Assembly: GCA_028284665.1 (NCBI GenBank)
Contig: JANQRG010000003.1
Coordinates: 1 to 54,937 of the forward strand
DNA: 54,937 bases
Source of the DNA: Croceivirga sp.
GTDB lineage: Bacteria > Bacteroidota > Bacteroidia > Flavobacteriales > Flavobacteriaceae
Reading direction: 5' to 3'
Shown here in pieces: positions 12,958 through 37,690 of this stretch. The notes below the pieces were generated by a model. That model ran no database searches. It had not been told where the DNA came from and saw only the letters and a program-made list of their open reading frames with translations. A program made the position numbers and the translations under genes. Each line of letters starts with the position of its first letter. Positions within the stretch are counted from its first letter, which is position 1.

Positions 12958-13356
12958 GTGAAAGTATTGTTTATAGAAGATGATATGATCGAATCCATGA
13001 AGTTACAGCGGGCTATTGAAAAGTTCCAGCTGAAGCATACGATCGTGGAAGCAAAAAATGGCGAAGAGGCCCTGGAGGTATTACGAAATGGTGATCTTCC
13101 TGATATCATCCTGTTAGACCTGAATATGCCCAGAATGAGTGGGATTGAATTCCTGACCATCTTAAAGGCTGATGAGCGCTTGAAATATTTACCGACAGTT
13201 ATTTTGACCACATCGGAAAACAGGGCAGATCTGCTGGAGTGTTTTAAAATTGGGATCGCCGGCTACGTGATAAAACCCTTAAAATATGAGGATTACGAAG
13301 CTAAGATTAAGAAAGTCTTTGATTATTGGGAGATCAGCGAATTGATCAAAGGCTAA
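12958..13356 (+). CDS. Stand-alone response-regulator receiver protein
   Basis: This 132-aa protein consists of a single REC domain: acidic pair Glu7-Asp8-Asp9, phospho-acceptor Asp54 in ILLDLNMPRM, TTSEN and the conserved Lys in YVIKPL. It has no output domain, so it probably works by protein contact or as a phosphate sink or intermediate. The start is a GTG. It precedes the H-NOX signalling operon by 77 nt but has its own upstream gap (12818-12957), and an operator-bearing promoter separates it from the H-NOX gene. Confidence 0.9.
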   Translation: MKVLFIEDDMIESMKLQRAIEKFQLKHTIVEAKNGEEALEVLRNGDLPDIILLDLNMPRMSGIEFLTILKADERLKYLPTVILTTSENRADLLECFKIGIAGYVIKPLKYEDYEAKIKKVFDYWEISELIKG

Positions 13357-13414
13357 CAAAAAACGGCATTTCACAACATTCTTTTTTAGTAAAGTAGTCC
13401 AATTCCTACTTTTA
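13352..13414 (+). promoter_or_regulatory. Type A operator and promoter P1 (H-NOX operon)
   Basis: TTCACAACAT ends at 13379 and is followed, after 27 bases, by TACTTTTA at 13407-13414, a -7 element. The upstream partner repeat is weak: only AACA at 13355, 20 bp before the matching AACA. P1 also shares TAAAGTA at the same position, and a CCTACTTTT block, with P2 (20001-20063). The TTT of the -7 begins 32 nt after the repeat ends, exactly as at P2 and P3. Inferred to bind the LytTR regulator encoded in this operon. Confidence 0.6.
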
Positions 13415-13433
13415 TTTCATAATATTCTGTATT

Positions 13434-13976
13434 GTGAAAGGAATTGTATTCACGGAGTTTTTGGAGATGGTAGAGACGCAGTTTGGTTTAGAGACTGTAG
13501 ATACCATTATAGATGCTTCGGACTTATCTTCAGGTGGTGCCTACACTGCAGTGGGCACGTATGAGTTTGGGGAGATGCTTCAATTGGTTACCCATTTAAG
13601 CCATGTTTCTCAAATTCCGGTTAACGATCTACTATACACTTTTGGGTTATATCTATTTCAAGGGCTTTCCAAGGCCCATCCGGAGGTCGTACAGAGCTAC
13701 CAAAATCCATTAAGCTTGTTGTACTCTATAGAAGACCATATCCATATTCAGGTAAAAAAGCTGTATCCGGATGCCGAATTACCCACTTTTAAGATTTTGG
13801 AGCGCACAGACCATTCGCTTACCATGATCTACAGCTCTTCTCGCGGTCTTTATGCGCTGGCACACGGCCTGATCGAAAAGACTTTTCAGCATTTTCAAAA
13901 GCAGGTCGATGTAGCAATGCAACTATTAAATGAACAAGGAACCGAAGTCAAATTTACCATTGTCCAGCAAGAGTAG
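13434..13976 (+). CDS. H-NOX (haem NO/O2-binding) sensor protein
   Basis: This 180-aa soluble haem sensor binds NO (some members also bind O2) and controls a partner kinase. Haem-binding features are visible: a probable proximal His104 in EDHIHIQVKKLYP, aligned by its 7-residue spacing to Tyr-Pro, and the propionate-binding Tyr-x-Ser-x-Arg motif Y133-S-S135-S-R137. The fold spans the full length, as in bacterial stand-alone H-NOX proteins. The start is a GTG. The 3' end overlaps the next histidine kinase gene by 47 nt, the classic H-NOX/kinase arrangement. Whether it excludes O2 cannot be read reliably from sequence. Confidence 0.92.
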   Translation: MKGIVFTEFLEMVETQFGLETVDTIIDASDLSSGGAYTAVGTYEFGEMLQLVTHLSHVSQIPVNDLLYTFGLYLFQGLSKAHPEVVQSYQNPLSLLYSIEDHIHIQVKKLYPDAELPTFKILERTDHSLTMIYSSSRGLYALAHGLIEKTFQHFQKQVDVAMQLLNEQGTEVKFTIVQQE

Positions 13977-16329
13977 TACGGAAGTTGGGGTATTACAGCG
14001 TGCCCTGGAACGGGAAAAGAAGGCTAGAAAAGCCGCTGAGCGTTTGTTGGAAGACAAATCCAAGGAACTCTATGATGCTTCTTTGCATTTACGGGAAGCC
14101 AATGGTAGACTAGAGGCGCTTCTTAATCAAAAGGATGCCGCTATTGACGGGGCCTTTGTAAATATTATCGATCCCTATGTGGTAATGGACCTGGAAACCA
14201 GGGTGCTGAATATGAACAACAGCGCTAAAGAGTTTTTGGGATATGATCATACACAGGAAGAGATCATGCTTTTCGATCTTGTACATAAAGACTATGTAGG
14301 GTATACCATAACATCATTTAAAACACTACTCCAGGTAGGGATTCTTAAGAACTATTGTGCCAAAATCGTTACTCGAAAATTGGGGGAAAGATTTGTGAAT
14401 ATCAATGCCAGCCTCATCTACGATAAGGAAGGAATTCCTATTGCAGCTCAAGGTATCCTAAGGGATATTACCAAGGACGTTGAGATCAGGGAGCTTTTGG
14501 AAGATCAAAAGAAGCAGCAAGAAATTATCGTTGAAAATTCGTCTTTAGGAATCTTGTTAATTGTAGATGGGAAAATTGTTCGCGCTAACAAAGCAGCCGT
14601 TGAGCTTTTTGGATACGCTGAGACCGAGCTTAAGAAGATGTCTATTGATACCATATCTACTATTGAAGATATCAGTTTATATAAGGACCTTATTGAAAAC
14701 AATCAAAAAGGGAAATCGGATCGATTCTCAATAGTCCGAAAATTCCATAAAAAAAATGGACAATCCCTCTACGGAAAGACCTCGGTCAGTACAGTAAGAA
14801 ACCAGCAGGGTAAAGTGGCGTATAAAGTTGCCATGATCGAAGATATCACTCACGATAAGTTGTCTGAAGAAAAAATTCGCGCTTCTGAGGAACGATTGAC
14901 CACATTGATCAGCAACCTGCAAACAGGAGTCTTGTTGGAAGACGAGAACAGGAAGATGGTACTGGCAAATCAAGAATTCTGTGATCTATTTCAAATACCC
15001 TTGGAACCCGAAAAGTTAATTGGGGTGGATTGTAAACGGTCTTTGGACAAATACAAGCATTTGTTTGTAGGTCCAGACCAAATGGTGGAAAGAATAGAAC
15101 ACATTCTTGAAGAAAAGGAGGTAGTACTTTCGGATGAATTGGACCTGGTTGATGGCAGAACCTTTGAAAGAGATTACATCCCATTGTTCATTGATGACGA
15201 GTACAAAGGCCATTTGTGGACCTATAATGACATTACCTTCCGGAAAAACTATCGTAAAAACCTTGAAATTCAAAAGGAGAAGTACAGCAGTATTATCGCC
15301 AATATGAATCTTGGATTGGTAGAAATTGATGGCGGGAGTACTATTTTGCTGGCCAATCACCGCTATGCTGAGATGATAGGGATTCCTCAACATGAACTTA
15401 TTGGGAAAAACGTCCTGGAATTGATGGGGCTGGACCAGGAAAATCTTAATAAGATCAAAGAACAGTTCGAAAAAAGAAAAAGGAATCAGTCAGATTCGTA
15501 TGAAATTGAAGTGGTCCTAAATACCGGAGAAAAAAGGTACTGGCTCATTAGCGGGGCACCGCGATACGATGAAACCGGTAAGATCGTGGGATCTATTGGG
15601 GTGCATCTGGATATTACCAAACAGAAGGAGCTGGAATTTCAAAAGCAAGACCTGGTTACCGAACTGGAAGACAGCAATAAGGGACTACAGGAATATGCAC
15701 ACGTAGTTTCTCATGATCTAAAATCGCCATTGCGTAGTATAACGGCTTTGGCGACCTGGTTGTTTGAGGATTACAAAGATGTATTGGACGAAAAGGGCAA
15801 GTACAATCTTCAAATGATGTTGGAAAAGGTAGAGGGTATGGACAAGTTAATTGACGGTATTCTTAAATATTCCACGGTAAATAGTGATCGCTTGGACAAC
15901 ACAACGGTGAATGTTAACGATGTTATCCGCGAAATTAAGGAGATCATTTACATCCCGGATCATGTTACCATCGAGATAACCAATACCCTACCGGTAATTC
16001 AAGCCGATAAGGTTAAAATCCATCAATTGTTTCAGAACTTTTTAAGTAATGCGGTGGTGAACATAGATAAGCCCGAAGGTTTGGTGGAAATTGCCAGTCA
16101 TGAAAATTCAACGCATTGGGAGTTTAGCATCAAGGACAATGGGGTAGGCATCCCTAAAGAATATCACGAAAAGATCTTTAAGATATTTCAGTCCATTGGT
16201 AACAAAGAGCGCTCCACAGGCATCGGACTATCCATCGTTAAAAAAATTATCGATCGTTACCAGGGCAAGGTCTGGTTAAATAGTGAAATAGGTGTGGGAA
16301 CCACCTTCTATTTTACCCTTAAAAAATAA
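13930..16329 (+). CDS. Soluble four-PAS sensor histidine kinase, H-NOX partner
   Basis: This 799-aa kinase has no transmembrane segments. It has an N-terminal coiled coil (about 20-70), then four PAS-like domains at about 75-190, 195-310, 320-440 and 448-565. The HisKA domain carries phospho-His595 (VVSHDLKSPLR), and the HATPase domain carries N707 (QNFLSNA), DNGVG at 736 and GIGLS at 764. It overlaps the H-NOX gene; a TTG at 13960 is an alternative start. Established H-NOX systems regulate autophosphorylation of such kinases. There is no fused receiver, so phosphate probably goes to a receiver protein and then the Hpt protein downstream. Confidence 0.93.
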   Translation: MNKEPKSNLPLSSKSSTEVGVLQRALEREKKARKAAERLLEDKSKELYDASLHLREANGRLEALLNQKDAAIDGAFVNIIDPYVVMDLETRVLNMNNSAKEFLGYDHTQEEIMLFDLVHKDYVGYTITSFKTLLQVGILKNYCAKIVTRKLGERFVNINASLIYDKEGIPIAAQGILRDITKDVEIRELLEDQKKQQEIIVENSSLGILLIVDGKIVRANKAAVELFGYAETELKKMSIDTISTIEDISLYKDLIENNQKGKSDRFSIVRKFHKKNGQSLYGKTSVSTVRNQQGKVAYKVAMIEDITHDKLSEEKIRASEERLTTLISNLQTGVLLEDENRKMVLANQEFCDLFQIPLEPEKLIGVDCKRSLDKYKHLFVGPDQMVERIEHILEEKEVVLSDELDLVDGRTFERDYIPLFIDDEYKGHLWTYNDITFRKNYRKNLEIQKEKYSSIIANMNLGLVEIDGGSTILLANHRYAEMIGIPQHELIGKNVLELMGLDQENLNKIKEQFEKRKRNQSDSYEIEVVLNTGEKRYWLISGAPRYDETGKIVGSIGVHLDITKQKELEFQKQDLVTELEDSNKGLQEYAHVVSHDLKSPLRSITALATWLFEDYKDVLDEKGKYNLQMMLEKVEGMDKLIDGILKYSTVNSDRLDNTTVNVNDVIREIKEIIYIPDHVTIEITNTLPVIQADKVKIHQLFQNFLSNAVVNIDKPEGLVEIASHENSTHWEFSIKDNGVGIPKEYHEKIFKIFQSIGNKERSTGIGLSIVKKIIDRYQGKVWLNSEIGVGTTFYFTLKK

Positions 16330-16343: not shown

Positions 16344-17471
16344 ATGAAAATTCAACAGGCAAAAAGAGTAAAAAACGGAACATGGGACTTCTTGCAATCC
16401 GGGAAGTTGCAGCGACCTTTGGTTTTAATATTCGGGGACCGGTTTTTGTTGGAAGATGAAGCCATCTTTAAGGAAATAAGGAACTTTTATCCCGACGGAG
16501 AACTGGTTTTCGGTTCTACTTCAGGGGAAATCCTGGATACCCATGTCTACGAGGGGATCATCACCATAACTGCCATCGAATTTGAGCAGGCTTCCTTTAA
16601 GATCGTACGGGAGAATGTATCCGATTTCGCTTCTGTAGAAGCCATGGGCGGAGCAATTTCCGATCAATTCGAAACAACCGGATTACAACATGTATTCGTT
16701 GTTTCAGACGGAAGCTTTGTGAATGGTAGTGGCCTGATAGAAGGTTTGGAGTCCAACGATAATTATTTTGCTTCTATTACTGGAGGACTTTGTGGCGATG
16801 GCACGCGTTTTGAAAAGACATTGGCCTCTTACAATGAATTGCCCAAACAGGGTGAAGTGGTTGCCATTGGGTTTTACGGAGAAAATTTGGAGATCTCCTA
16901 TGCCAATTATGGCGGATGGACGCCTTTTGGGCCGGAGCGGACAATAACCAAATCCGAAGACAACATATTATATGAAATTGACGGGCAACCTGCCTTGGAT
17001 CTATATAAGAAGTATCTAGGGGACAAGGCCAAGGAATTGCCCCAGGCTGCCTTATTGTATCCCCTTACCGTACAACAACACAAGGATACGGAACCGCTGG
17101 TCAGAACTATTTTGAATATCGATGAAGCGACAAATTCGATGATTCTTGCCGGAGATGTTCCTGAGAATTCTAAGGTGCAACTAATGATGTCTACTATGGA
17201 TGATATTGCCAATGGCGCCTATCATGCAGCAAAGCTTGCCATGCAAAACAGGAAAGATAAACCGGAATTGGCAATTTTGGTTAGTTGTGTCGGCAGAAGA
17301 CTGGTTTTGGCAGAACGTACCGAAGAAGAAATAGAAGAAGTGTCCGAAGTGGTAGGGGATCAGGCAAAACTCACAGGATTCTATTCCTATGGGGAAATGG
17401 CACCCTTTGCCGGTAAGAGTGAATGCCAGTTACACAACCAAACAATGACCCTAACCTTAATGAGTGAGTAA
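16344..17471 (+). CDS. FIST-domain sensor protein (NosP-like candidate)
   Basis: This 375-aa soluble protein consists of the FIST N (about 25-220) and FIST C (about 225-365) regions. Motifs include the N-terminal VFGSTSGEI, GGLCGDGTRF and the C-terminal SCVGRR with GFYSYGEMAPF. FIST proteins are small-molecule sensors; the NosP subgroup binds haem and NO and is usually encoded beside a histidine kinase. Here the start codon of a histidine kinase gene follows the stop codon directly. The NosP function is inferred from domain plus context; I cannot see a diagnostic haem ligand. Confidence 0.85.
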   Translation: MKIQQAKRVKNGTWDFLQSGKLQRPLVLIFGDRFLLEDEAIFKEIRNFYPDGELVFGSTSGEILDTHVYEGIITITAIEFEQASFKIVRENVSDFASVEAMGGAISDQFETTGLQHVFVVSDGSFVNGSGLIEGLESNDNYFASITGGLCGDGTRFEKTLASYNELPKQGEVVAIGFYGENLEISYANYGGWTPFGPERTITKSEDNILYEIDGQPALDLYKKYLGDKAKELPQAALLYPLTVQQHKDTEPLVRTILNIDEATNSMILAGDVPENSKVQLMMSTMDDIANGAYHAAKLAMQNRKDKPELAILVSCVGRRLVLAERTEEEIEEVSEVVGDQAKLTGFYSYGEMAPFAGKSECQLHNQTMTLTLMSE

Positions 17472-18569
17472 ATGCATTCTTTGCTGAAACGTCAAATAAA
17501 AAAGTTCTTACCGCTACGGTTTAAAGAAAGCCCGGAGTTGGCGCAATTTTTTGAATCGGTAGATAAATCCTATACCGATTATGATGATAAACTGACAATG
17601 ATCCAACGGGCCACCTCATTGAGTTCTAAAGAACTTTATGAAGCCAATAAACGGCTGAACAAAGAGACAGAAGGACAACGGAAAATCCTGGAGGCGTTGA
17701 GCAAAGCAGTAGCCCTTATGGAGCACGGGACCACTCAACAACAAGGAAATCAAGGATTTGATCCTCAACGCCTCGTTGAAAATATAGAGAATCAGGCTAA
17801 CAAGATTTTGGAGATCACTGCGGAAAAGGACGTTCTGCTTCAAAATTTGGAACGGCAGAACGAGTCGCTGAACAATTACGCTCACATGGTTTCTCACGAT
17901 CTAAAATCACCGATCCGGAATATTCATTCCTTACTCACCTGGGTGTATGAAGATAGCTGTGACGATTTTAAATCGGGGTGTAAAGGCAGCTTTGAACTCA
18001 TCTTTCAAAACTTGTCAAAAATGGACAGTTTGATCGATGGGATCTTAAAGCATGCCACAATTGACGCCTTGGAAGAAAAGGTTAAGGAGGTAGATCTAAA
18101 CCAATTGATAAAAGAGATTGAGCGCACCATTTTTGTTCCTGATACGGTCAAAATCAAGATTAAAGGTAACCTTCCAACCATCACCACTGGAAAATACAGA
18201 ATAGAGCAGCTATTCAAGAATTTGATTACCAATGCGGTCGCGGCTACTGAGGGAAGTAAAACCGGCTTAGTGACTTTAGAAGCCAGGGAGCAGGAAGATC
18301 ATTGGTTGTTTTGTATCGCTGACAATGGTAAAGGAATTCCCAAGCATTTACAAATGGGGATCTTTGATATGTTTAAAAAGCTGGAAAACGATGCTAATGC
18401 GACAGGGATAGGTCTTGCACTGGTAAAAAAGATCATCAATCATTATGAGGGGGATATTTGGCTCTCTTCTGAAGAAGGGATGGGAACCACCTTTTATTTC
18501 ACCATAAAAACAACAAAAAATGACAGAAGTCCCAAATTTGAACTACATCAAGGAAATAGCAGGAGGTAA
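17472..18569 (+). CDS. Soluble histidine kinase, FIST/NosP partner
   Basis: This 365-aa cytosolic kinase has a helical/coiled-coil N-terminus (about 1-130) without PAS domains, then HisKA with phospho-His142 (MVSHDLKSPIR) and HATPase (NLITNA, DNGKGIP, GIGLALVKK). The catalytic part closely resembles that of the upstream H-NOX kinase. The architecture fits kinases controlled in trans by FIST/NosP proteins. The ATG directly follows the FIST stop. The C-terminal tail overlaps the Hpt gene by 50 nt in another frame, so the two are translationally linked. Confidence 0.92.
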   Translation: MHSLLKRQIKKFLPLRFKESPELAQFFESVDKSYTDYDDKLTMIQRATSLSSKELYEANKRLNKETEGQRKILEALSKAVALMEHGTTQQQGNQGFDPQRLVENIENQANKILEITAEKDVLLQNLERQNESLNNYAHMVSHDLKSPIRNIHSLLTWVYEDSCDDFKSGCKGSFELIFQNLSKMDSLIDGILKHATIDALEEKVKEVDLNQLIKEIERTIFVPDTVKIKIKGNLPTITTGKYRIEQLFKNLITNAVAATEGSKTGLVTLEAREQEDHWLFCIADNGKGIPKHLQMGIFDMFKKLENDANATGIGLALVKKIINHYEGDIWLSSEEGMGTTFYFTIKTTKNDRSPKFELHQGNSRR

Positions 18570-18843
18570 CGAAGAATTCGAGAAAAAATTTCTGGCAATC
18601 ATCCAGGCCGAATTTCCGAGAGAAAAAGAGGATTACTTGAAGTATTTGGAAGATGGGGCACTGGAAGAATCTGCTAAAGTGGTGCATAAGATTAAGCATA
18701 AGTTTGGCATTTTGGGACTTACAGAAGGGTATAAAACGGCAATACAGTATGAGGAAGACCTAAAAGGGGGTAATACGGTACTAATGGAGGAGTTTTCCGG
18801 GATTCTTAGGGCAGTAGAAGATTTTATTTTAAAAATAACCTGA
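18520..18843 (+). CDS. Hpt-domain phosphotransfer protein
   Basis: This 107-aa protein is essentially one HPt four-helix bundle, starting YIKEIAGGNEEF and with phospho-acceptor His56 in KVVHKIKHKFGILGL. It would relay phosphate between receiver domains or from the two upstream kinases to the LytTR regulator that begins one base after its stop. The ATG at 18520 is the only start that keeps the first helix, so the 50-nt overlap with the kinase gene is probably real. Confidence 0.9.
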   Translation: MTEVPNLNYIKEIAGGNEEFEKKFLAIIQAEFPREKEDYLKYLEDGALEESAKVVHKIKHKFGILGLTEGYKTAIQYEEDLKGGNTVLMEEFSGILRAVEDFILKIT

Positions 18844-18844: not shown

Positions 18845-19555
18845 GTGAAATGTATAGTAATCGATGATGAGCGCTCAGCAAGAGCAATAGTGACAGCGCT
18901 TTGTGAAAACAGCGAGGAGCTTCAAATGATCGCGGAGTTTCCCAATGCTGTTGAAGCACTGAAGTACTTGAATCAACATTCCGTTGACGTCATTTTTCTG
19001 GACATCCACATGCCCTTTCTCACGGGGATCGATTTCATACAAACGCTTAAAAACCCTACGAAAGTAGTGTTTACTACTTCGGATAAAGACTTTGCCATTG
19101 CGGCCTATGAATACGAGTTTATTGTGGATTATTTGGTGAAACCTATTACTCCGGAGCGATTTAGAAAGACCCTTGTAAAGTTGAAAAATGCGTATCTGCC
19201 TGTGACGGCAAATGGGGATTTGGGAATTGAAGAAAGCGAGGGGGAAGACAATCTATACATCAATATAGACAGAAGATTGATTAAGTTGCATTTGGGAGAG
19301 GTGCTGATCGTTGAGGCCAAAGGAGACTATATTGAGATCAAAACCACCACCACCACTTACAGGGTACACGCAACCCTAAAGAAAATCAAAGAGAAATTAC
19401 CGGAATCCCGTTTCATGCAAATCCATAGGTCCTATATCATTAATTTTAAAAAAATAATTGATATTCAGGACAATAGTGTCTTAATAGAACGCAGTGTAAT
19501 TCCAATAAGCAGGTCGCATCGTCCTCATCTGATGCAGCGTTTGAACTTGCTATAA
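18845..19555 (+). CDS. LytTR-family response regulator
   Basis: This 236-aa DNA-binding regulator has an N-terminal REC (Asp7-Asp8, phospho-Asp53 in IFLDIHMP, Lys in YLVKPITPE) and a C-terminal LytTR domain (about 140-236; EVLIVEAKGDYIEIKT, FMQIHRSYIINFKKI). LytTR proteins bind pairs of about 9-bp direct repeats one or two helical turns apart, matching the type A repeats found in front of this operon and the three polysaccharide operons. The start is a GTG one base after the Hpt stop. It is the only evident transcription factor of the operon. Confidence 0.94.
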   Translation: MKCIVIDDERSARAIVTALCENSEELQMIAEFPNAVEALKYLNQHSVDVIFLDIHMPFLTGIDFIQTLKNPTKVVFTTSDKDFAIAAYEYEFIVDYLVKPITPERFRKTLVKLKNAYLPVTANGDLGIEESEGEDNLYINIDRRLIKLHLGEVLIVEAKGDYIEIKTTTTTYRVHATLKKIKEKLPESRFMQIHRSYIINFKKIIDIQDNSVLIERSVIPISRSHRPHLMQRLNLL

Positions 19556-19574: not shown

Positions 19575-19877
19575 GTGGCTTTGGAAATAAAAGAAAACAA
19601 AGGGATATTTCAAATTCATGGAAAGGTGACTTCGCAAAACCTTGAGGCACTGAAAATATACTTTGATACTGTCTTAGCCTCCCAAAATATCATAGTAGTA
19701 AATCTAGAGTATCTAAAAGGCATGGACGCTTCGGCGGCCTTGTTTTTTGAAAAGCTTTACAGGGATGCTGCCACAAGAAATAAGACAATGACCATTGTAG
19801 GGAGAGAAAATCAAAATATTTCGGAAATCATGGCGCTGACCAAGACGAATTACATTCTTAGCCCGGATAGCGTTTAA
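19575..19877 (+). CDS. STAS-domain protein (anti-sigma-antagonist-like)
   Basis: This 100-aa protein is one STAS domain. The phosphorylation-site loop resembles that of SpoIIAA-like antagonists but reads GMDASAALFF, keeping a Ser after Asp-Ala. It starts with GTG and is the last gene before a strong terminator. STAS proteins usually act by partner switching with a kinase or phosphatase; no partner gene is visible here. Its presence suggests an additional non-transcriptional or sigma-linked output. Confidence 0.85.
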   Translation: MALEIKENKGIFQIHGKVTSQNLEALKIYFDTVLASQNIIVVNLEYLKGMDASAALFFEKLYRDAATRNKTMTIVGRENQNISEIMALTKTNYILSPDSV

Positions 19878-19933: not shown

Positions 19934-20000
19934 TGTTTGTACCCGGAGACGAAAAGAAGCCGTTTTCACAAAAAACATGACCAACAGTGGGTAGGGACTT

Positions 20001-20063
20001 ACAACATATTGCCCTTGTTTTACAACATACAATTTAGATAAAGTAATATTAATCCTACTTTTC
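20001..20063 (+). promoter_or_regulatory. Type A operator and promoter P2 (first polysaccharide operon)
   Basis: There are two perfect copies of TTACAACAT-like repeats (ACAACAT at 20001-20007 and 20022-20028), exactly 21 bp apart. After 27 bases follows TACTTTTC (20056-20063), one mismatch from TAnnTTTG. The proximal repeat lies where a -33 element would be, as expected for an activator-dependent promoter. A weaker third copy (CCAACAG) begins at 19981. Confidence 0.75.
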
Positions 20064-20091: not shown

Positions 20092-20457
20092 ATGAAAATT
20101 CTTGTTGTTGATGATAAGCAATCGTTAAGCGAATTAGTGGCGCAGTTTTTAGGACAATCCTATCATGTGAATACCGTTGAAAACGGGCTTGCTGCGATTA
20201 CGTGGTTACAGGAAGGCAATATGCCGGATCTGATCATTACCGATCTGGAAATGCCGGAAATGGATGGCTTTGAACTGATCAAACGGGTAAGGCAGACCGG
20301 AGTATTCTCTGATATCCCGATCATAGTGCTTAGTTGCAGGGATAGTAGCAGTGATCGTATTGAGTGCTTACGACTTGGTGCGGATGATTACCTGGTAAAG
20401 CCCTTCAATCCTGAGGAATTGCTTATCCGTGTCGATAAGCTACTAATCCGTCAATAA
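20092..20457 (+). CDS. Stand-alone response-regulator receiver protein (polysaccharide operon)
   Basis: This 121-aa REC-only protein has all phosphorylation residues: Asp7-Asp8, acceptor Asp51 (IITDLEMPEMDGFE), Ser in VLSCRD and Lys in YLVKPFNPEE. It is the first gene of the polysaccharide operon and ends two bases before a phosphoglycosyltransferase that carries an inactive receiver domain. A direct receiver-to-pseudo-receiver contact is therefore plausible. It has no DNA-binding output. Confidence 0.93.
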   Translation: MKILVVDDKQSLSELVAQFLGQSYHVNTVENGLAAITWLQEGNMPDLIITDLEMPEMDGFELIKRVRQTGVFSDIPIIVLSCRDSSSDRIECLRLGADDYLVKPFNPEELLIRVDKLLIRQ

Positions 20458-20459
20458 CT

Positions 20460-21692
20460 ATGGAAGTACTGGTAAGCAAGACAACTACCGTCCTTTACAT
20501 AGGTTCAAACCAGCGATTTGCAGAAGAGTTTCACCGTTTTTCCCAGAACGTCACGGTGAATACAGTAGATTCTACTGAAGACGCAATAAAGTGGCTGCAC
20601 AATCACAGTAACTATGATAACGATAAATGGATCAATGCCCAGAAAGCGGTTGATGCCATCTTATGTGAGAAGACTATTCCAACAAAAGATATTAAAGAGT
20701 TTCAACGCTATTTGATAAAAGTGTTCGATCCTGCCAAGAAGATTCCCCTGGTAATACTTGCAGATAAAGTGACTAAAAAGGAAAAGCTCAAGACGCTTGA
20801 AAATGGATTTGACGATATTTTTTCACACCCCATCAGTTTTCAGCAGGTATTGGAACGGATCAGCTTTCTTAAAGAGCTCAAGCAAAACCTAAGGCACGAG
20901 CAGATAGCTGAAGGGCAAAAGAATACGCAGCACTACAAGACCGGATTCTGGAAAAGATCATTCGACATTATTGTGGCGGGTACGGTACTCCTTCTCGCTG
21001 CTCCATTTTTGCTTTTGGTTATTCTTGCGATACGGTTAGAATCCAAAGGAAAGGTATACTACATCTCCAAACGAGTAGGAACCAGTTATAGGATCTTCAA
21101 TTTTTTAAAATTGCGCTCCATGTATCCGGATGCGGATAAGCGCCTAAAGGAGTTTCAGCATTTGAATCAATACGTTCATGACACCGACGAGGTCGTATTC
21201 GATATCGTAAGTGATGCGGATGGAAATGAACAGCAGGGCACCAAGTTGTTTGGGGATGATACCGAGGTGTATGAAAAAGCCCATAATGAGAAGCGGAAAA
21301 AGAATGCGGAAAGCGCCTTTGTCAAGTTTGATAATGATCCACGAATTACCAAAGTAGGGAAGGTAATACGAAAGCTTAGTATTGATGAGCTTCCTCAGTT
21401 GATCAATGTCTTAAAAGGAGATATGTCCATAGTGGGAAATCGGCCCTTACCGCTGTATGAGGCAGAGATGTTAACTACAGACGAGTGGACGGAACGCTTT
21501 AATGGACCTGCCGGAATTACAGGTCTTTGGCAGGTAGAGGCCAGGGGGAGAACTTCTAAAATGTCTCCTGAAGAACGAAAACAATTGGATATCAAGTATG
21601 TAGAATACGCCAACAGTAAATATGCTTTTTGGATAGACTTGTGGATAGTGTTACGGACGTTTAAAGCAGTATTCCAAAAAGAAAATGTATAG
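20460..21692 (+). CDS. Pseudo-receiver fused to a phosphoglycosyltransferase (priming sugar transferase)
   Basis: This 410-aa protein is a two-part fusion. Residues 8-140 look like a degenerate REC domain: the acidic pair is missing, the phospho-Asp position is Glu70 (DAILCEKTIP), and the Lys-Pro motif is His-Pro. Residues 160-410 are a PglC/WcaJ-type phosphoglycosyltransferase with one membrane segment (about 168-192), the Lys-Arg-rich KLRSMYPDAD and the catalytic Asp-Glu of SIDELPQL. It transfers a sugar-1-phosphate to undecaprenyl phosphate to start the repeat unit. The insert at about 225-300 is acidic. The sugar is unknown. Confidence 0.9.
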   Translation: MEVLVSKTTTVLYIGSNQRFAEEFHRFSQNVTVNTVDSTEDAIKWLHNHSNYDNDKWINAQKAVDAILCEKTIPTKDIKEFQRYLIKVFDPAKKIPLVILADKVTKKEKLKTLENGFDDIFSHPISFQQVLERISFLKELKQNLRHEQIAEGQKNTQHYKTGFWKRSFDIIVAGTVLLLAAPFLLLVILAIRLESKGKVYYISKRVGTSYRIFNFLKLRSMYPDADKRLKEFQHLNQYVHDTDEVVFDIVSDADGNEQQGTKLFGDDTEVYEKAHNEKRKKNAESAFVKFDNDPRITKVGKVIRKLSIDELPQLINVLKGDMSIVGNRPLPLYEAEMLTTDEWTERFNGPAGITGLWQVEARGRTSKMSPEERKQLDIKYVEYANSKYAFWIDLWIVLRTFKAVFQKENV

Positions 21693-21694
21693 GA

Positions 21695-29917: not shown

Positions 29918-30886
29918 ATGAAAAGGATTCTAGTCACCGGAGGAGCTGGATTTGTCGGATCACACTTATGTGAACGACTACTACAACAGGGGCATGAAGT
30001 TGTTTGTATGGACAACTATTTTACGGGAAGAAAAAGTAAGATCGTGCATTTAATGGCTAACCCGTATTTTGAACTGATACGGCACGATGTTACGCTTCCT
30101 TATTTCATAGAAGTAGATGAGATTTACAATCTGGCTTGTCCAGCGTCACCGGTGCACTATCAATACAATCCTATCAAAACGATCAAAACCTCGGTTATGG
30201 GCGCTATTAATATGTTGGGATTGGCAAAGCGTATTGAAGCGAAGATTTTGCAAGCCTCTACGAGTGAAGTATACGGAGATCCTGAAGTGCACCCACAACC
30301 GGAGGGGTATTGGGGGCATGTAAATCCTATAGGAATCCGTTCCTGTTATGATGAGGGGAAACGTTGCGCGGAATCACTGTTTGTAAACTACCATCAGTCC
30401 AACGATGTTTTAGTTAAAATTGTTCGGATTTTCAACACCTATGGCCCGAGAATGGAACCGGATGACGGTAGAGTGGTATCCAATTTTATCATGCAAGCTT
30501 TACAGGGGCAGGACATTACAGTCTTCGGTGACGGTACCCAAACCCGAAGCTTTCAATTTGTGGACGACCTGGTAGATGGTATGATCAAAATGATGGCTAC
30601 CGAAGATGATTTTATAGGTCCTATCAATATTGGGAATCCAGGAGAGTTTACGATGTTGGAACTGGCAGAGAATATCATAGATCTGACCGGTTCTAAATCC
30701 AAGATTATCTATTTACCATTACCATCGGATGACCCAATGCAACGTAAACCGGACATTACCTTGGCCAAAGAAAAGTTGAATGGATGGGAACCCTCCGTGG
30801 ATTTGCGTACCGGATTGCAAAAAACCATAGCCTATTTTGATGGTATGCTTCAGGAGCGATCCATTAAGCAGTTAGTGAATTCATAA
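29918..30886 (+). CDS. uxs: UDP-glucuronate decarboxylase (UDP-xylose synthase)
   Basis: This 322-aa extended short-chain dehydrogenase converts UDP-glucuronate to UDP-xylose. It has ITVGG-type Rossmann start [18 protein letters not shown], the decarboxylase hallmark [11 protein letters not shown], catalytic Thr/Ser in [10 protein letters not shown] and the Tyr-x3-Lys motif as [22 protein letters not shown] completes the pattern. It follows ugd by 9 nt, so the operon supplies GlcA and Xyl donors. Confidence 0.94.
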
Positions 30887-30909
30887 GTTAAGTTTAAATA
30901 AGAATACCA

Positions 30910-32109
30910 ATGGATGCAATTCAAATAACGGTCAATGTTCTGGAAATCATAGTGTTGATCTATTTTGGTTTTGCATCCCTTTATGTCTTTGTTTTTGCTC
31001 TTGCCGGTCTTTTTACGCCTAAGCAAAGGGAAAACATCATTGCAAAACAGCGGAAGTTTGCTGTACTCATTCCCGGATATAAAGAGGATAACGTAATAGT
31101 AGAAGTGGCCCGGAGAGCTTTAGAGCAAAGTTATCCGGAAGAGCGCTATGATGTAGTTGTCATTGCCGATTCTTTTCAGGAAATCACATTGCAAAAACTT
31201 AGAAAGCTACCTGTAAAATTAGTAGAGGTCGCTTTCGAAAAGAGTACTAAATCCAAGGCCTTGAATAAAGCGATGGAGGTCATTGGGGATCGCTATCATG
31301 TCGCTTTGATTTTGGACGCTGATAACATTATGGACTTTGATTTTGTGGAACGCATCAATGAGGCGTTCAACAAGGGATATAAAGTAGTACAAGGCCACAG
31401 AATTGCGAAAAATACCAACACTCCTTTTGCCATTTTGGATGCCATAAGTGAGGAGGTCAACAATCATATTTTTAGAAAGGGCCATCGCGTATTGGGGCTT
31501 TCTTCGGCCCTGATTGGTTCTGGAATGGCCTTTGATTATCACTTTTTCAAATCTACTATGGCTAAGGTGCATGCGGTGGGTGGATTTGATAAGGAATTGG
31601 AATTAAAGCTGCTTAAGAACAGGAACACCATAGCGTATTTGCATGATGCTTTAGTGTTGGATGAAAAGGTTCAGAAAACAGCGGTGTTTGCCAATCAACG
31701 CAAACGATGGTTGTCGGCTCAATTCGTTTATTTCAAGCGATTTGCCGCCTCTGGTGTTCGGGAACTAGTACTAAAGGGGAATGTTGATTTTGCCGATAAG
31801 GTCTACCAAATGATTGCTCCACCCCGGATACTACTTTTGGGGCTTGTCTTTTTGATCACTTTGATGTATTCCGCCGGGCATTTCCTTTTTGAAGATGGTT
31901 GGTTGTCTATATCACCCGGGGTATGGTGGGTTACCTTCAGCCTGGTTGTTCTGGCGTTTGTAATGGCCATCCCAAGAAAATTCTACAACATGAAAACTGC
32001 ACAGGCCATTTTGACCTTACCCAGGGCTTTTGGAGTCATGTTTTTATCGCTGTTCAAATTAAAAGGGGCGAACAAAAAATTCATTCATACCCAACACGGG
32101 ACAGTCTAA
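30910..32109 (+). CDS. Membrane-bound family 2 glycosyltransferase
   Basis: This 399-aa protein has an N-terminal helix (about 8-35), a processive-type GT-A domain and three C-terminal helices (about 300-395). Motifs are IPGYKEDN, IADSF, the metal-binding LILDADNIMD and the acceptor motif QRKRW (Gln-x-x-Arg-Trp). The layout resembles cellulose/hyaluronan-synthase-like transferases in miniature. The linkage is unknown. It may make part of the polymer backbone. Confidence 0.86.
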   Translation: MDAIQITVNVLEIIVLIYFGFASLYVFVFALAGLFTPKQRENIIAKQRKFAVLIPGYKEDNVIVEVARRALEQSYPEERYDVVVIADSFQEITLQKLRKLPVKLVEVAFEKSTKSKALNKAMEVIGDRYHVALILDADNIMDFDFVERINEAFNKGYKVVQGHRIAKNTNTPFAILDAISEEVNNHIFRKGHRVLGLSSALIGSGMAFDYHFFKSTMAKVHAVGGFDKELELKLLKNRNTIAYLHDALVLDEKVQKTAVFANQRKRWLSAQFVYFKRFAASGVRELVLKGNVDFADKVYQMIAPPRILLLGLVFLITLMYSAGHFLFEDGWLSISPGVWWVTFSLVVLAFVMAIPRKFYNMKTAQAILTLPRAFGVMFLSLFKLKGANKKFIHTQHGTV

Positions 32110-32125
32110 ACTTCTAAAGGAGAAT

Positions 32126-33286
32126 ATGAAAATTGGCATAGAGGGACAACGGCTTTTTAGGAAAAAAAAGCATGGCATGGACATGGTGGCTTTGGAACTT
32201 ATCAAAAATCTACAGGAAATAGATCACAAAAATGAGTATGTCATTTTTGTAAGACCGGACGAGGATAATACTTGTATTCCGGATGCACCGAATTTTAAGG
32301 TCGTAGAACTGACCTCAAAATGGGGGTATCCCGGGTGGGAACAGATCGCTTTACCTAAAGCCGCTTTTCAAGAGGGGTGTGATGTGCTCCACTGCACCAG
32401 TAATACAGGCCCTTTGTTTTGTAAAGTGCCTTTGGTGACCACGCTGCACGATATTATCTATTTGGAGAGTATCAGCCTTTTCAAAAAAGAAGGCTCATGG
32501 TACCAAAAATTGGGGAATATGTACCGAAGATATTTTGTTCCCCCTGTGATCAAAAAGAGCAAAAAGGTAATTACGGTTTCCAATTATGAAAAGCAACGGA
32601 TCAACGACCACTTCGGGTTTACGGACGATCGTTTAACTGCAATATACAATGGGGTGGGGAATCATTTTAAAAGGATTACAGATCCTTCCACTTTAAAAAG
32701 CATAAAGGAGGAGTACCATTTGCCGGATCATTTCTTTTTCTTTTTAGGAAATACCGATCCCAAGAAAAATACCATAGGTGTTTTGCAAGCTTTTGCCAAA
32801 TTCAACAAGGTATATCCTGGAAAGTTCAGTTTGGTGATGTTGGATTATGACGAGTCCGAGTTACGACGATTACTACAGTCCATAAATGCAACGGAGTTAC
32901 GTTCACAAATCCATCTCACGGGGTATGTACCCAATACAATTCTTCCGGCATTGATTAGTCAATGCTCTATCTTTTTATACCCTTCGCTACGGGAAAGTTT
33001 TGGTATTCCCATCTTAGAAGGGATGGCTTGCGGCGTACCGGTAATTACTTCTAACACTTCCTCTATGCCCGAAGTAGCTGGAGAAGGCACCGCATTGATC
33101 GTAGATCCGTTCAATCCAAATGAAATCGCATGGGCTATGCAGCATTTGGTAGAGGATGCCGCATTGGCGAAGGTCCTGGCCGATAGAGGCATTGAACGGG
33201 CAAAGTGCTTTTCATGGAAAGCGATGGCCCGAAATGTTTTAGAACTCTATGAAGATGTCTATAATGGGTTAAAGGTAACAGCATGA
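32126..33286 (+). CDS. Glycosyltransferase family 4
   Basis: This 386-aa GT-B fold transferase uses the retaining GT4 pattern: VLHCTSNTGPL, HDIIYLES, KVITVSNYEKQRI in the N-domain and the donor-binding IFLYPSLRESFGIPILEGMACGVPVI (here the Glu of Phe-Gly-Ile-Pro) with SNTSSMPEVAGEG. It lies in the ugd operon and overlaps the next gene by 4 nt. Donor and linkage are not predictable. Confidence 0.9.
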   Translation: MKIGIEGQRLFRKKKHGMDMVALELIKNLQEIDHKNEYVIFVRPDEDNTCIPDAPNFKVVELTSKWGYPGWEQIALPKAAFQEGCDVLHCTSNTGPLFCKVPLVTTLHDIIYLESISLFKKEGSWYQKLGNMYRRYFVPPVIKKSKKVITVSNYEKQRINDHFGFTDDRLTAIYNGVGNHFKRITDPSTLKSIKEEYHLPDHFFFFLGNTDPKKNTIGVLQAFAKFNKVYPGKFSLVMLDYDESELRRLLQSINATELRSQIHLTGYVPNTILPALISQCSIFLYPSLRESFGIPILEGMACGVPVITSNTSSMPEVAGEGTALIVDPFNPNEIAWAMQHLVEDAALAKVLADRGIERAKCFSWKAMARNVLELYEDVYNGLKVTA

Positions 33287-34488
33287 TCAAAGGACAGGAT
33301 ATAATCGTAATGGGTATTCAGGCCTGGGATATTGAGATTGGCAGCAACTGCAAAAATATCGCCCTTGAGATGGCCAGGAACAATCGGGTGCTATACGTGA
33401 ATCCTCCCATGGATCGGATATCGAGATATCGCGAAAGGCACACCAAAAAAATCCAAAAAAGACTCCGTATAAAAAAAGGACAGGAAAAGGATTTAGTACA
33501 GCTAGGGGATACCCTGTGGACACTATATCCCAGGACAATGACGGAATCCATCAACTTCGTAAAGAACAGTTTTCTTTTCGATATTCTAAACAAAAAGAAT
33601 GCCCGGCGGTTCAGCAAGGATATTAAAACGGCCATCCAGCGTTTGGGATTTCGAGAATATATCGTTTTTAATGATAGTTCCATGTTTTTGGGGCAGCATA
33701 TAAAGGACTTTTTGCAACCTACCTTCTATGTCTATTATATGCGGGACTATCTGACCAAAAATCCCTATTGGAGAAAAAACGGGGTGCGTTTAGAACCCAG
33801 ACTGATACAAAATGCAGATTGTGTAGTGAACAATTCTACCCTCTACACCGAGTACGGGAAGCAGTTTACCACGCATTCGTACATGGTAGGCCAGGGATGT
33901 GATACGTCGCTGTTCAATGAAGGCGTACGAAAGATTACTATTCCTAAAGACCTACAATCCATTCCAAAACCAATAGTAGGTTATGTCGGGTTTTTGAGCA
34001 GTCGAAGATTAAGTATTGACATTTTAATTCACATCGCAACCGAACGGCCGGATTGGAGCATTGTCCTTGTAGGCCCCGAAGATGACCAATTCAACAGCTC
34101 CCAACTCCATGAGATAGACAATGTTTATTTTTTGGGAAGCCGGGACGCCTCCCAATTGCCCAATTATATAAAGGGCTTTGATGTCGCCATTAACCCACAG
34201 TTGATCAATGAGGCTACCATGGGGAATTATCCCAGAAAGATAGACGAGTATTTGGCAATGGGGAAACCTACCGTTGCTTCGGCCACTAAGGCAATGGAAT
34301 ATTTTAAAGCATATACTTACCTGGGAGAATCTCCTGAAGACTATGTGCACTTAATAGAAAAAGCGTTACAAGAAAACTCGGAAGCACTGGAAGAAAAAAG
34401 AAGGGCTTTTGGCCTGTCGCATAGTTGGGAAAACAACGTCAATGCGATTTATGACTGCATCCTAAAAGTTAAAAATGCATCTGCATAA
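33283..34488 (+). CDS. GT-B fold glycosyltransferase
   Basis: This 401-aa protein resembles a divergent GT1/GT4-type transferase. Features are an N-terminal beta-alpha pattern ([25 protein letters not shown]), the linker [30 protein letters not shown] and a C-terminal [30 protein letters not shown] donor site. Its start overlaps the preceding gene by 4 nt. The substrate is unknown. Confidence 0.83.
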
Positions 34489-34499
34489 AATGTACTACC

Positions 34500-35141
34500 A
34501 TGGGAATCCTCGCCAAAATCAAATCAAATCCAAAGTTAAAGCGACTGGTCTTACGGATGATAGCGCCACAGCGAAATCCCCGGCCCAGATTATGGGTGAG
34601 ATGGTTTTTAAATCCATTAAAGCACAAAAGGGGTAAAGGGGCTACTATTAGAAGAAACAGTCGGCTGGATGTTTTTCCCTGGAAAAAATTTGAGATCGGA
34701 AAATTGACCACTATTGAAAGCTATTGCACCATAAACAATGGTTCCGGTGATGTGATATTAGGGGACCGTGTACGGGTTGGAATAGGTAGTGTAATTATTG
34801 GCCCGGTGAAAATGGGCAACGGTTCGGGTTTGGGGCAACATGTATTTGTCTCCGGGTTTAATCATGGCTATTCCGATGGGACGAAGAACTCCAGTGAGCA
34901 AGCTTTGGATATCCGGCCAACAGTTATAGAGGATGAAGCCCACATTGGGGCAAATTCGGTGGTGTTGGCAGGGGTGACCATTGGCAAAAGATGCCAGATC
35001 GGTGCGGGAAGTGTGGTCACCAAAGATATTCCTCCCTTTTCCATAGCTGTAGGCAACCCTGCACGGGTCATCAAACAATTTAATCACCATACGGGGGAGT
35101 GGGAACGTGTGGCGCATCAAAAGTCCCTTTCGGTACATTAA
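34500..35141 (+). CDS. Left-handed beta-helix acyltransferase (WbbJ-like)
   Basis: This 213-aa protein contains repeated hexapeptides ([LIV]-G-x4) from about residue 60 to 195, e.g. [47 protein letters not shown] and [13 protein letters not shown], ending in the [13 protein letters not shown] signature. Catalytic His is probably in FNHGYSD. It probably O-acetylates a sugar of the polymer. The N-terminal 60 residues are basic. Confidence 0.88.
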
Positions 35142-35151
35142 AAACTAGCTT

Positions 35152-36363
35152 ATGGAAATAGTAAAGATCTTTTTCTGGGTGGCATTGTTCATTATTTTCT
35201 ACTCGTATCTGGGTTATGGCTTACTGCTTTTTATCATCATAAAAACACGAAGGCTTTTAGGCTTTGGGAAGCCATTTCATGGCAATGAGAATTACGAGCC
35301 TGAGGTAACACTTTTTGTTGCCGCGTATAATGAAAAGGACTATCTGGACGAGAAAGTGAATAATTCCAGGTGTCTGAACTATCCTAAGGCAAAAGTGACC
35401 CAACTTTGGGTTACCGATGGTTCGGATGATGGCACTCCGGAATTACTGAAAAAATATAAAGATGTTACCGTATTACACGAACCAGCCAGAAATGGAAAGA
35501 TAGCAGCAATGAACCGGGGGATGCAATATGTGAACACCCCGATCGTAATATTTTCCGATGGCAATACCAGTCTGGGGAAGGAGTCCATTCAAGAGATTGT
35601 TAGGTTGTTCCGCGATCCTAAAGTAGGGTGTGTTTCCGGGGAGAAAAGGATTTATTCCAAAACAACCGATAGTGCAGCTGGGGCAGGAGAAGGAATGTAT
35701 TGGAAATACGAATCACAACTCAAAAAATGGGATGCAGAATTGTATTCAGTGGTTGGTGCGGCGGGAGAGCTTTTCGCCATACGGACGGAATTGTGGCAGG
35801 AAGTGGAACCGGACACCTTGTTGGACGACTTCATGATCTCCTTGAGAACGGCGATGAAGGGGTATACGATTCAGTACAACCCCGAAGCTTATGCCATTGA
35901 AAATGCTTCAGCTAACGTTAAAGAGGAATTAAAAAGGAAGATCCGTATCTCTGCGGGCGGGATTCAATCGGTTGTCCGTCTGGCGCCGCTATTAAATAGC
36001 TTCAGATATGGCACCCTCTCATTTCAATACATATCACATCGAGTGCTACGCTGGACATTGACACCACTATTATTGCTGTTGATCATTCCCGCCAATTTGG
36101 CCCTGGCGATGACCGAAGGGATATGGGCTTTTGGAATTTTTAGCATGCTGTTCTGGGGGCAGGTACTTTTCTATATGGCGGCCTTGCTCGGGTGGTTCCT
36201 GGAAAATAGGCAGATACGGTTAAAAATCCTTTTTATTCCGTATTACTTCTTTATCATGAACCTTTCCGTCTTTTTAGGGTTTATCCGTTATACACGAGGC
36301 GGTCAGTCCGTAAAGTGGGAAAGAGCAAAACGCGGGGGAAATACAGAAGGAGTGTTGACTTAA
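35152..36363 (+). CDS. Membrane-associated family 2 glycosyltransferase
   Basis: This 403-aa protein has an N-terminal helix (about 5-30), a GT-A domain (VAAYNEKDYLDEKV, VTDGSDDGT, metal-binding IFSDGNTSL, a late Asp-Asp in LLDDFMIS) and three or four C-terminal helices (about 295-385). Instead of QxxRW it carries RKIRISAGGIQSV, a common variant. It is the last gene of the ugd operon, and its TAA overlaps the stop of the convergent histidine kinase by 4 bp. Confidence 0.87.
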   Translation: MEIVKIFFWVALFIIFYSYLGYGLLLFIIIKTRRLLGFGKPFHGNENYEPEVTLFVAAYNEKDYLDEKVNNSRCLNYPKAKVTQLWVTDGSDDGTPELLKKYKDVTVLHEPARNGKIAAMNRGMQYVNTPIVIFSDGNTSLGKESIQEIVRLFRDPKVGCVSGEKRIYSKTTDSAAGAGEGMYWKYESQLKKWDAELYSVVGAAGELFAIRTELWQEVEPDTLLDDFMISLRTAMKGYTIQYNPEAYAIENASANVKEELKRKIRISAGGIQSVVRLAPLLNSFRYGTLSFQYISHRVLRWTLTPLLLLLIIPANLALAMTEGIWAFGIFSMLFWGQVLFYMAALLGWFLENRQIRLKILFIPYYFFIMNLSVFLGFIRYTRGGQSVKWERAKRGGNTEGVLT

Positions 36364-37496
36364 ACCGAAACCTCTTTTGCTACCGGCAAGTCAAAGTAAA
36401 ATGTGCTACCCTCCCCAACAGTACTTCGTATTTTAAGTGTACCACCGTTCTTGCGAACAAAGTTTTGACAGAGCACAAGTCCCAGACCGGTACCCGGTTC
36501 TTTCTCAGTACCCAATTTGCTGAAATGTTCGTTAGGATTTAGGATTTTGGGAATATCCTCCGAGGGTATGCCTTGCCCATTATCCTGGACCTCTACGATC
36601 ATCCTGTCCTTTTCCATGTCAAGGTTCACCTGGATCTCACCTTCGTAAGGGGTAAACTTAATGGCATTAGAAAGCAAATTCCGCAACACGGTTTTGGTCG
36701 TATTCAAATCGGCATGAGCAAAGGTTGACTCAGGAACGTTGTTCCGCAAACTAATGCTTTTATGTTCACTCCCCAACTTTAGAAGGCGGAATGTTTGTTC
36801 TACAATTTCATGCAGATCAAGATTTTCCGGGATCACCTGAATTTGATCACTCTCTGCCTTCGCCCACCCCAATAGGTTCTGAAGCAGGTTTAAGGCCTCA
36901 TCCATGGTCTTTAACAGTTCATAGACGGTTTTATCTTTAAAATCGGAAGATTCGGGATCAATGATACCCCGCATGATAAAATCCATTTTTAGTTTTGCCG
37001 CACTCAAAGGGGAACGAAGATCATGCCCGATAATCGAAAACATACGGTCCTTTAAAGCATTAGATTGTCTTAAATTCTCCGCTTGCCGCTCTATTTGGTT
37101 TCTCGCCCTTCTTAGCTCAACATGGGTTTGAATCCGGGCGATAAGCTCTTGTTCGTTAAAAGGTTTGGTGACATAATCTACCCCGCCAACCTCAAAACCT
37201 TTGATCTTGTCTTTCACGTTTACTTTGCCGGTAAGAAATATGATGGGAATATCCTTGTATTGGGGGAAGGTTTTGATTTTTTCGCAGAGCTCAAAACCCT
37301 CTATCCGAGGCATAATAATGTCCAGTAGGATCAACTCTGGAGGCTGTTGTTGCAAAAGCTCAAAAAAGTGCTCGTCATCATGCGTTCCCTGGAAGACAAA
37401 ACCGTTCCTTTCCAGGATAAATCGCAGGAGTTCCAGGTTCAATTGCTCGTCGTCAATGGCGAGTATATAAGGTTTTTCCGTAACTTGCTGAGACAT
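36360..37496 (-). CDS. Receiver-histidine kinase protein (REC-HisKA-HATPase)
   Basis: This 378-aa soluble protein has an N-terminal REC (Asp15-Asp16, phospho-Asp59 in LILLDIIMPRIEGFE, Lys in VTKPFNEQE), a short coiled coil (about 125-150), HisKA with phospho-His158 (SIIGHDLRSPLS) and HATPase (NLLSNAIKF, DNGQGIP, GTGLGLVL). The receiver-first order means that it takes a phosphate signal as input and passes it to an unknown partner. It is transcribed against the polysaccharide genes, divergent from rfbB across a 221-bp region containing P4. TACTTTCG at 37525-37518 is a possible -7 element. Confidence 0.92.
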   Translation of the reverse strand: MSQQVTEKPYILAIDDEQLNLELLRFILERNGFVFQGTHDDEHFFELLQQQPPELILLDIIMPRIEGFELCEKIKTFPQYKDIPIIFLTGKVNVKDKIKGFEVGGVDYVTKPFNEQELIARIQTHVELRRARNQIERQAENLRQSNALKDRMFSIIGHDLRSPLSAAKLKMDFIMRGIIDPESSDFKDKTVYELLKTMDEALNLLQNLLGWAKAESDQIQVIPENLDLHEIVEQTFRLLKLGSEHKSISLRNNVPESTFAHADLNTTKTVLRNLLSNAIKFTPYEGEIQVNLDMEKDRMIVEVQDNGQGIPSEDIPKILNPNEHFSKLGTEKEPGTGLGLVLCQNFVRKNGGTLKIRSTVGEGSTFYFDLPVAKEVSV

Positions 37497-37625
37497 AGGG
37501 GGTAGCTATACACTATACGAAAGTAAGAAAAAGTTGATAGTACAGGGTGGTATTATCCTATAAAAACCTGAAAGAATCCCGGTGCACGGTGTTCATCTGT
37601 AATAATAAGTGTAATTTCAGGGTTC

Positions 37626-37690
37626 TACCACCAAAAAGATGGCTTTCACAACATAAATTCAATCGACCGCAAGAAGTAAGATTATATTTA
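37626..37690 (+). promoter_or_regulatory. Type A operator and promoter P4 (rfb operon)
   Basis: The repeat TTCACAACAT (ACAACAT 37648-37654) has a weaker partner TACCACCA at 37626-37633, exactly 21 bp upstream. TATATTTA (37683-37690) is the -7 element, with its TTT 33 nt after the repeat, one base longer than in P1-P3. The -7 region is nearly identical to that of P3. Confidence 0.65.

Follow-up and report, generated by a model that had tools for sequence, protein, structure and literature searches.

LytTR-type response regulators are described in the available passages of PMC4847170 as binding pairs of direct or inverse repeats, each 9-11 nt long, with 11-13 nt between them, at sites without a common consensus; the same source ascribes a polysaccharide function to a LytTR-type regulator of Pseudomonas aeruginosa. 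Those of PMC6193735 place the repeats just upstream of the -35 element, mostly with 12-bp spacers, and tabulate a repeat from Bacteroides thetaiotaomicron, while PMC9723704, in its corresponding part, gives the Bacteroidota -7 element as TAnnTTTG at -12 to -5. In Vibrio fischeri, according to the portion consulted of PMC8738867, H-NOX acts via the Hpt domain of SypF on the syp exopolysaccharide regulon. Here, we analyzed a window of 54,937 nt, the whole of contig C45 (JANQRG010000003.1) of a 4.59-Mb draft genome of Croceivirga sp. (GCA_028284665.1), in which the motif TTNACAACAT (the A box) stands upstream of an H-NOX/LytTR signalling operon (promoter P1), the rrB-wz operon (P2), ugd (P3) and rfbB (P4). 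The A box is a real and conserved element that resembles a LytTR operator and marks a wider regulon. Judging from sequence comparisons, we lean slightly towards the reading that a two-component system encoded on contig C22 of the same genome controls P1-P4 within that regulon, and that the LytTR protein of the window more likely reads a second repeat, the B box. The A boxes and -7 elements are as follows.

13370..13379, + strand: single A box of P1, TTCACAACAT
13407..13413, + strand: -7 element TACTTTT of P1, 28 nt after ACAACA
19998..20007, + strand: distal A box of P2, CTTACAACAT
20019..20028, + strand: proximal A box of P2, 21 bp from the distal box, TTTACAACAT
20056..20062, + strand: -7 element TACTTTT of P2
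28462..28471, + strand: distal A box of P3, TTTACAACGT
28483..28492, + strand: proximal A box of P3, TTCACAACAT
28520..28526, + strand: -7-like element AATATTT of P3, in the same register as in P1 and P2
37624..37633, + strand: weak distal box of P4 (ACCACC at 21 bp), TCTACCACCA
37645..37654, + strand: proximal A box of P4, TTCACAACAT
37683..37689, + strand: -7 element TATATTT of P4

The initial annotation of this DNA had reported boxes at these four promoters, and all were confirmed in place, together with the arrangement that it described. P2 and P3 carry two strong copies with a period of exactly 21 bp; P4 has a weaker partner, mismatched at 3 of 8 scored positions yet exactly 21 bp away; and P1 has a single box, the sequence in its 21-bp register (AAGGCTAACA) being mismatched at 6 of 8. 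The -7 element lies in register 28 (nucleotides after ACAACA) at P1, P2 and P3 and in register 29 at P4, the AATATTT of P3 having one mismatch to TANNTTT. The distances to the TTT given earlier (32, 32, 32 and 33 nt) are correct when counted inclusively from the end of the 10-mer, and correspond to 41, 41, 41 and 42 nt when the first base of that proximal 10-mer is the starting point. As in LytTR operators, repeats of about 9-11 bp separated by 11-13 bp occur exactly at P2 and P3, with the weak partner at P4, and not at P1; the fixed place upstream of a promoter, also a mark of such operators, is seen in the TANNTTT register. The likeness to LytTR spacing drawn in the annotation holds up, since the element is built like a LytTR operator with direct repeats, sits at activator distance and is enriched in the genus specifically at 21 bp.

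Around the -7 elements, P3 and P4 share GTAAGATWATATTTACAAA (28513-28531 and 37676-37694), offset by one base. A pattern picked post hoc, after being seen, GTA-N10-TAC, recurs 3' of the A box at each of the four promoters (13394-13409, 20043-20058, 28513-28528 and 37676-37691), in registers of 15 and 21-22 nt after ACAACA. It is present in orthologous promoters of P1 (20/36), P2 (9/13), P3 (6/6) and P4 (6/9); of 30 representative A-pair contexts, two contain it, namely P2 and P3 themselves.

On both strands of the window, TTNACAACAT was observed 6 times, against 0.72 expected. Four of the six matches are intergenic, each 5' of an operon, in a window whose intergenic share is about 5% as computed from our own gene list. 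ACAACAT alone is less striking (16 observed, 7.8 expected; 1 of 100 shuffles reaches 16). A search for the pair at 21 bp in this genome and its relatives, the check proposed with the annotation, found it enriched: across 40 related genomes, this one included, the exact A pair gave 48 matches, compared with 11 for a reversed-pattern control, while one extra base of spacing gave 1 match, compared with 4 for its own reversed control. Of 51 distinct A-pair contexts in the fetched loci, 25 had TANNTTT starting 28 nt after ACAACA, every other offset reaching at most 4, and the register persisted in 11 of 30 contexts after collapsing at 70% identity. A chance origin was rejected on the excess of boxes in the window, the excess of pairs across genomes and the 21-bp exactness. 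The broader idea that no regulator is involved, and that the boxes are alike through core-promoter resemblance or by chance, draws on the -7 regions of P3 and P4, which are long and nearly identical, and on the general likeness of AT-rich promoters; it is opposed by the fall from 48 matches at 21 bp to 1 at 22, by the conservation of the A box across genera and by the P1 orthologue of genome G175. There the box is displaced by exactly 21 bp upstream, placing TANNTTT at 49 and not 28, and a weak degenerate copy, TCCATAACA, read by eye, remains at the usual place. We consider this explanation scarcely credible.

Conservation was counted over distinct orthologous promoters. Distant ugd and rfbB homologues, sampled at one genome per genus, were too far for footprinting, and from these only the rfbB loci L188 and L189, and no ugd locus, enter the counts. 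The P1 box (at most 1 mismatch) is kept in 24 of 36 promoters, and none of the 24 has a partner with at most 2 mismatches 21 bp upstream. In ten of the 12 P1 loci without a box, hnox overlaps rr0 or starts within 20 bp of its end; the remaining two, G006 and G010, have a 78-79-bp rr0-hnox gap, as in box-bearing loci, yet the box is absent. The P2 pair (distal box with at most 2 mismatches) is kept in 10 of 13 loci, being missing from L079, L325 and L326, and the P3 pair in all six. The proximal P4 box is retained in 6 of 9, each with ACCACC at 21 bp, and is absent from two loci of other genera and from L061 (10001-14958, a 94% relative), where the rfb operon lies with rfbB directly 3' of the LytTR gene.

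The genome encodes 34 LytTR genes. One of them, the C22 LytTR (G000:C22:90707-91459; PF00072 + PF04397), is matched at 87-98% identity (E ≤1e-90) in another 12 of the 40 genomes, and exact A pairs occur in 13 of the 13 genomes that carry it versus 2 of the 27 that do not (Fisher p 9e-9, for genomes that are non-independent). The two are also linked physically: the 660 bp 3' of the C22 LytTR gene contain at least one pair (at most 2 mismatches, 21 bp) in every one of the 13 genomes and three in this genome, where the gene beyond the gap encodes a HisKA_2 kinase with TPR. In G037, which belongs to another family, both A pairs are intergenic, and one lies about 7 bp 3' of a response regulator-LytTR gene that follows a HisKA_2 kinase gene; among 30 of the 34 LytTR loci of the Croceivirga genome, this A-linked LytTR matches the C22 LytTR best (159 vs 77 bits). 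Both A pairs of G025, which is without a C22 LytTR, lie inside open reading frames (ORFs), as does one pair of G011. Close orthologues of the window LytTR (E ≤3.4e-78; the next genome at 1e-64) are found in 19 of the 40 genomes, namely the 13 with the C22 LytTR and six more, and no A pair occurs in those six. The LytTR named as reader by the initial annotation is probably the wrong one.

At three intergenic A pairs (0-2 mismatches) between the C22 LytTR and kinase genes (L281 3050-3700, G000:C22 about 91549-92200), TANNTTTG lies 28 nt downstream of each pair. Terminator-like hairpins follow the first two pairs before the next pair begins (the second folded, the first read by eye), which suggests two tandem candidate small RNAs.

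Several observations weigh against the C22 assignment. Twelve of the 13 genomes are this genome, its genus and one more of its family, and the 13th is from another genus of that family; the co-occurrence is therefore confounded by descent. Among the genomes examined there is none with a C22 LytTR and no window LytTR. The threshold of E 1e-90 would miss diverged C22-type proteins, as in G037, and A pairs are present in 2 of the 27 genomes scored as lacking one (inside ORFs in G025, intergenic in G037). G006 and G010 lack the P1 box despite having both LytTR proteins. At up to 3 mismatches, this genome contains 30 pairs versus 18 for the reversed pattern, and many lie inside ORFs; weak pairs are therefore taken to be mostly noise, and exact pairs were used.

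The same side of the balance includes what speaks for the window LytTR (18845-19555). The initial annotation had it read the A boxes, with autoregulation through P1 and direct control of exopolysaccharide genes; we find this reading, whether of the A boxes alone or of the A boxes together with the B box, doubtful. P1 heads the operon of the window LytTR and P2 is the next promoter downstream, and the exopolysaccharide operon follows the LytTR operon in L062-L067, L079, L092, L334, L335, L336 and L338. G142 has rrB and the exopolysaccharide genes, no H-NOX/LytTR operon in the stretch fetched, and a P2 without an A box. At the third position of the FhRhHRS motif, the window LytTR carries Q in 24 of the 25 rows from taxa that have a P1 box (the exception, L074, has H) and K in 11 of the 13 rows from taxa that do not; two rows of this comparison duplicate other records. 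The LytTR beside an A pair in G037 likewise has Q there, so the window LytTR may read the A box too; the C22 LytTR has R. The corresponding residue of AgrA, R198, contacts DNA according to the available part of PMC4227749. As a discriminator between the candidate readers, the DNA-contact residues do not decide. A PDB search with the window LytTR provided no LytTR-DNA template, since among the 60 matches listed all start in the receiver and none lies over the LytTR domain as a family.

Against the window LytTR stand the six genomes that have its orthologue and no A pairs, the A pairs 3' of the C22 LytTR gene in all 13 genomes, and the different repeat, the B box, that precedes rr0 at its own locus in Q and K taxa alike. 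Autoregulation through P1 fares poorly, the A box being present at hnox in only 24 of 36 loci and absent from the ten close-gap loci and from G006 and G010. Motif loss in relatives that keep both loci, which the annotation had named as a possible refutation, does occur, in L079 and G127, where both operons are present and P2 lacks an A box, although the P2 pair is kept in most orthologues. The boxes do precede exopolysaccharide operons, as had been said; it is direct control by the window LytTR that the association of A pairs with the C22 LytTR leaves unsupported. Likewise, this is indeed the only LytTR gene in the window, but with 34 in the genome that is weak evidence.

With so many LytTR genes, a further member, or several overlapping ones, might read the A box. 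The loops of the C22 LytTR (FFRAHKS/SKDFKEF) and of its G037 relative (FIQTHRS/SRSHRDE) differ, and both genes adjoin A pairs, so LytTR proteins that differ from each other may read the box. However, none of the four exact A pairs in this genome lies by a LytTR gene other than those of C22 and the window. At up to 3 mismatches, one pair with 1 mismatch is near LytTR C8:77944 and one with 3 mismatches lies inside a gene near LytTR C50:43835. We regard this possibility as improbable, and return to the C22 system.

The A box would be a LytTR-type operator consisting of one or two direct repeats of 9-10 bp with a period of 21 bp, the proximal box ending 28-29 nt 5' of a TANNTTT -7 element. Setting the TA of the -7 element at -12 would place the boxes at roughly -41 to -49 and -62 to -70, an activator position comparable to that in other LytTR systems, whose repeats are just 5' of the -35 element (PMC6193735). 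The most likely effect of a regulator bound there would be activation of RNA polymerase at promoters that lack a good -33 element, and the C22 LytTR with its TPR/HisKA_2 kinase would thereby control the H-NOX/FIST signalling operon and three exopolysaccharide operons. The single box of P1 and the weak partner of P4 suggest differing response thresholds; the weak box might be filled cooperatively.

The second repeat lies just outside the range covered by the initial annotation.

12844..12876, + strand: B-box pair upstream of rr0, period 21, ATTTCATCGACG and CATTCACCGAAG

The window pair has 5/24 mismatches to two copies of the consensus CATTCRYCKACA. Upstream of rr0, the B box was found in 36 of 41 distinct loci at ≤7/24 mismatches (a lenient threshold, with no shuffled control) and in 20 of 41 at a strict ≤3/24, the window copy not being among the latter. 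It is present in L071, L072, L078 and L088, where the fetched 20 kb gave no hnox match, and in rr0 promoters of taxa with either Q- or K-type window LytTR. A search of the 40 genomes at ≤2 mismatches returned 10 matches and none for the reversed pattern, with none in the Croceivirga genome itself; seven of these matches have a window LytTR orthologue no more than 7 kb away, and two of the seven precede a gene with a polysaccharide-flippase domain, one with an intervening STAS gene. This clustering makes the window LytTR the more likely reader of the B box. Five A-pair promoters (L219, L228, L246, L276 and L285) also carry a B-like half-site, TTTCATCGA or TTCGTCGA, 32 or 42 bp 3' of the proximal A box (distances counted by eye).

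Beyond the window, recurrent A-pair promoters precede a protein gene (LRR-type in this genome) and a large ORF running off the fetched loci (L219, L228, L246), and others precede non-coding stretches that end in terminator-like hairpins. Five candidate RNAs related to one another, each about 145-175 nt long on the assumption that they start 12 nt after the -7 TA, were recognized in G021 (L274, L275, L283) and G011 (L277, L279); each has a GTAATTAAGTGAGAG-like start, two CCCAAAT-like motifs and a terminal terminator-like hairpin. An Rfam search at gathering scores over the window and nine loci returned one tRNA and nothing else, leaving the candidate RNAs unmatched. Downstream of an A pair in L284 (G021), a small ORF of 33 aa (MEAQMNQTQEDIQVYRNEFLSGIVMLTKKLFML) precedes a terminator-like hairpin; L278 (G011) has the same arrangement, with a closely similar version of this conserved ORF.

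A bolder proposal, which we advance tentatively and think somewhat more likely to fail than to hold, is that the A box serves as operator for a so far undescribed two-component system of the Maribacter-Flagellimonas-Croceivirga group, made up of a TPR/HisKA_2 kinase and a LytTR protein. With one exact promoter geometry, the system would activate exopolysaccharide synthesis, the H-NOX/FIST nitric oxide-signalling operon and several small RNAs that are paralogous and contain repeated CCCAAAU-like motifs, making it a LytTR counterpart of the multi-copy small RNA outputs of other quorum and stress systems.

The genes behind the four promoters, and rr0 before them, are as follows.

12958..13356, + strand: rr0, stand-alone response-regulator receiver (PF00072)
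13434..13976, + strand: H-NOX protein (PF07700 HNOB, 132.9 bits)
13930..16329, + strand: PAS histidine kinase (Pfam match)
16344..17471, + strand: FIST-domain protein, NosP-like (PF08495, PF10442)
17472..18569, + strand: second histidine kinase (HATPase_c)
18520..18843, + strand: small protein read as Hpt (by-eye reading of HKIKHKFGILG)
18845..19555, + strand: window LytTR response regulator (PF00072 + PF04397)
19575..19877, + strand: STAS-domain protein (PF01740)
20092..28392, + strand: P2 operon, with rrB (receiver), sugar transferase, OEP, chain-length protein, flippase, polymerase and glycosyltransferase
28556..36363, + strand: ugd operon behind P3 (profile searches covered all but the last genes)
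37712..41072, + strand: rfbB operon behind P4

The operon that P1 precedes thus runs from the H-NOX gene through the PAS kinase, FIST, second kinase, Hpt-like and LytTR genes to STAS. The H-NOX protein combines an HNOB domain with what we take to be the haem-ligand motifs, YSSSR at 133 and HIQV at 104. The FIST protein scored 48.7 bits against the NCBIfam NosP model NF041558, below its cut-off of 450, and is not assigned to NosP. The small protein at 18520..18843 gave no match in a Pfam search and is called a candidate Hpt from what is presumably the Hpt motif. The chain-length protein of the P2 operon was assigned from weak NCBIfam matches alone, and rfbA, rfbC and rfbD in the P4 operon were named purely by gene order and length. 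The closest relatives of the window LytTR are in Flavobacteriaceae records named Croceivirga, Croceitalea, Maribacter, Flagellimonas and others.

To our knowledge, few transcription regulators of Bacteroidota have a defined operator and promoter geometry. This analysis provides a searchable box, a candidate reader and a target list that includes exopolysaccharide synthesis, nitric-oxide sensing and candidate small RNAs. It also makes the question of two proteins and two boxes clearly testable, and offers an example in which the nearest regulator gene may be the wrong one to credit.

The A box or its regulon was not mentioned in the titles and abstract openings of the literature searched, with most subscription papers outside reach. 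The closest described counterparts are the LytTR operators of HdrR, BrsR and YpdB, which the A box resembles in repeat length, spacer and upstream placement. It differs from them in that ACAACAT is absent from the passages available of PMC4847170 and PMC6193735, in the TAnnTTTG -7 element at exactly 28 nt, and in the single box of P1. P1 contains GGCATTTCAC, which resembles the YpdB box GGCATTTCAT, a likeness treated as a lead only because LytTR sites lack a common consensus. The best NCBIfam match of the window LytTR is BtsR of the E. coli BtsS/BtsR system (NF008677, 131.4 bits), below the cut-off of 246, so that it is not assigned to BtsR; unlike BtsS/BtsR, it is encoded together with H-NOX, FIST and Hpt-like proteins, and the histidine kinases of the operon are of PAS or plain type. 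As in H-NOX/NosP nitric oxide signalling, the H-NOX and FIST genes of the window each adjoin a histidine kinase gene; in contrast to those systems, the operon includes a LytTR regulator and its FIST protein falls below the NosP cut-off. The Pseudomonas aeruginosa regulator with a polysaccharide function, which we take to be AlgR, has partners different from those of the window system. Set beside these relatives, the system is of an ordinary kind, with a sequence and a regulon that are apparently new.

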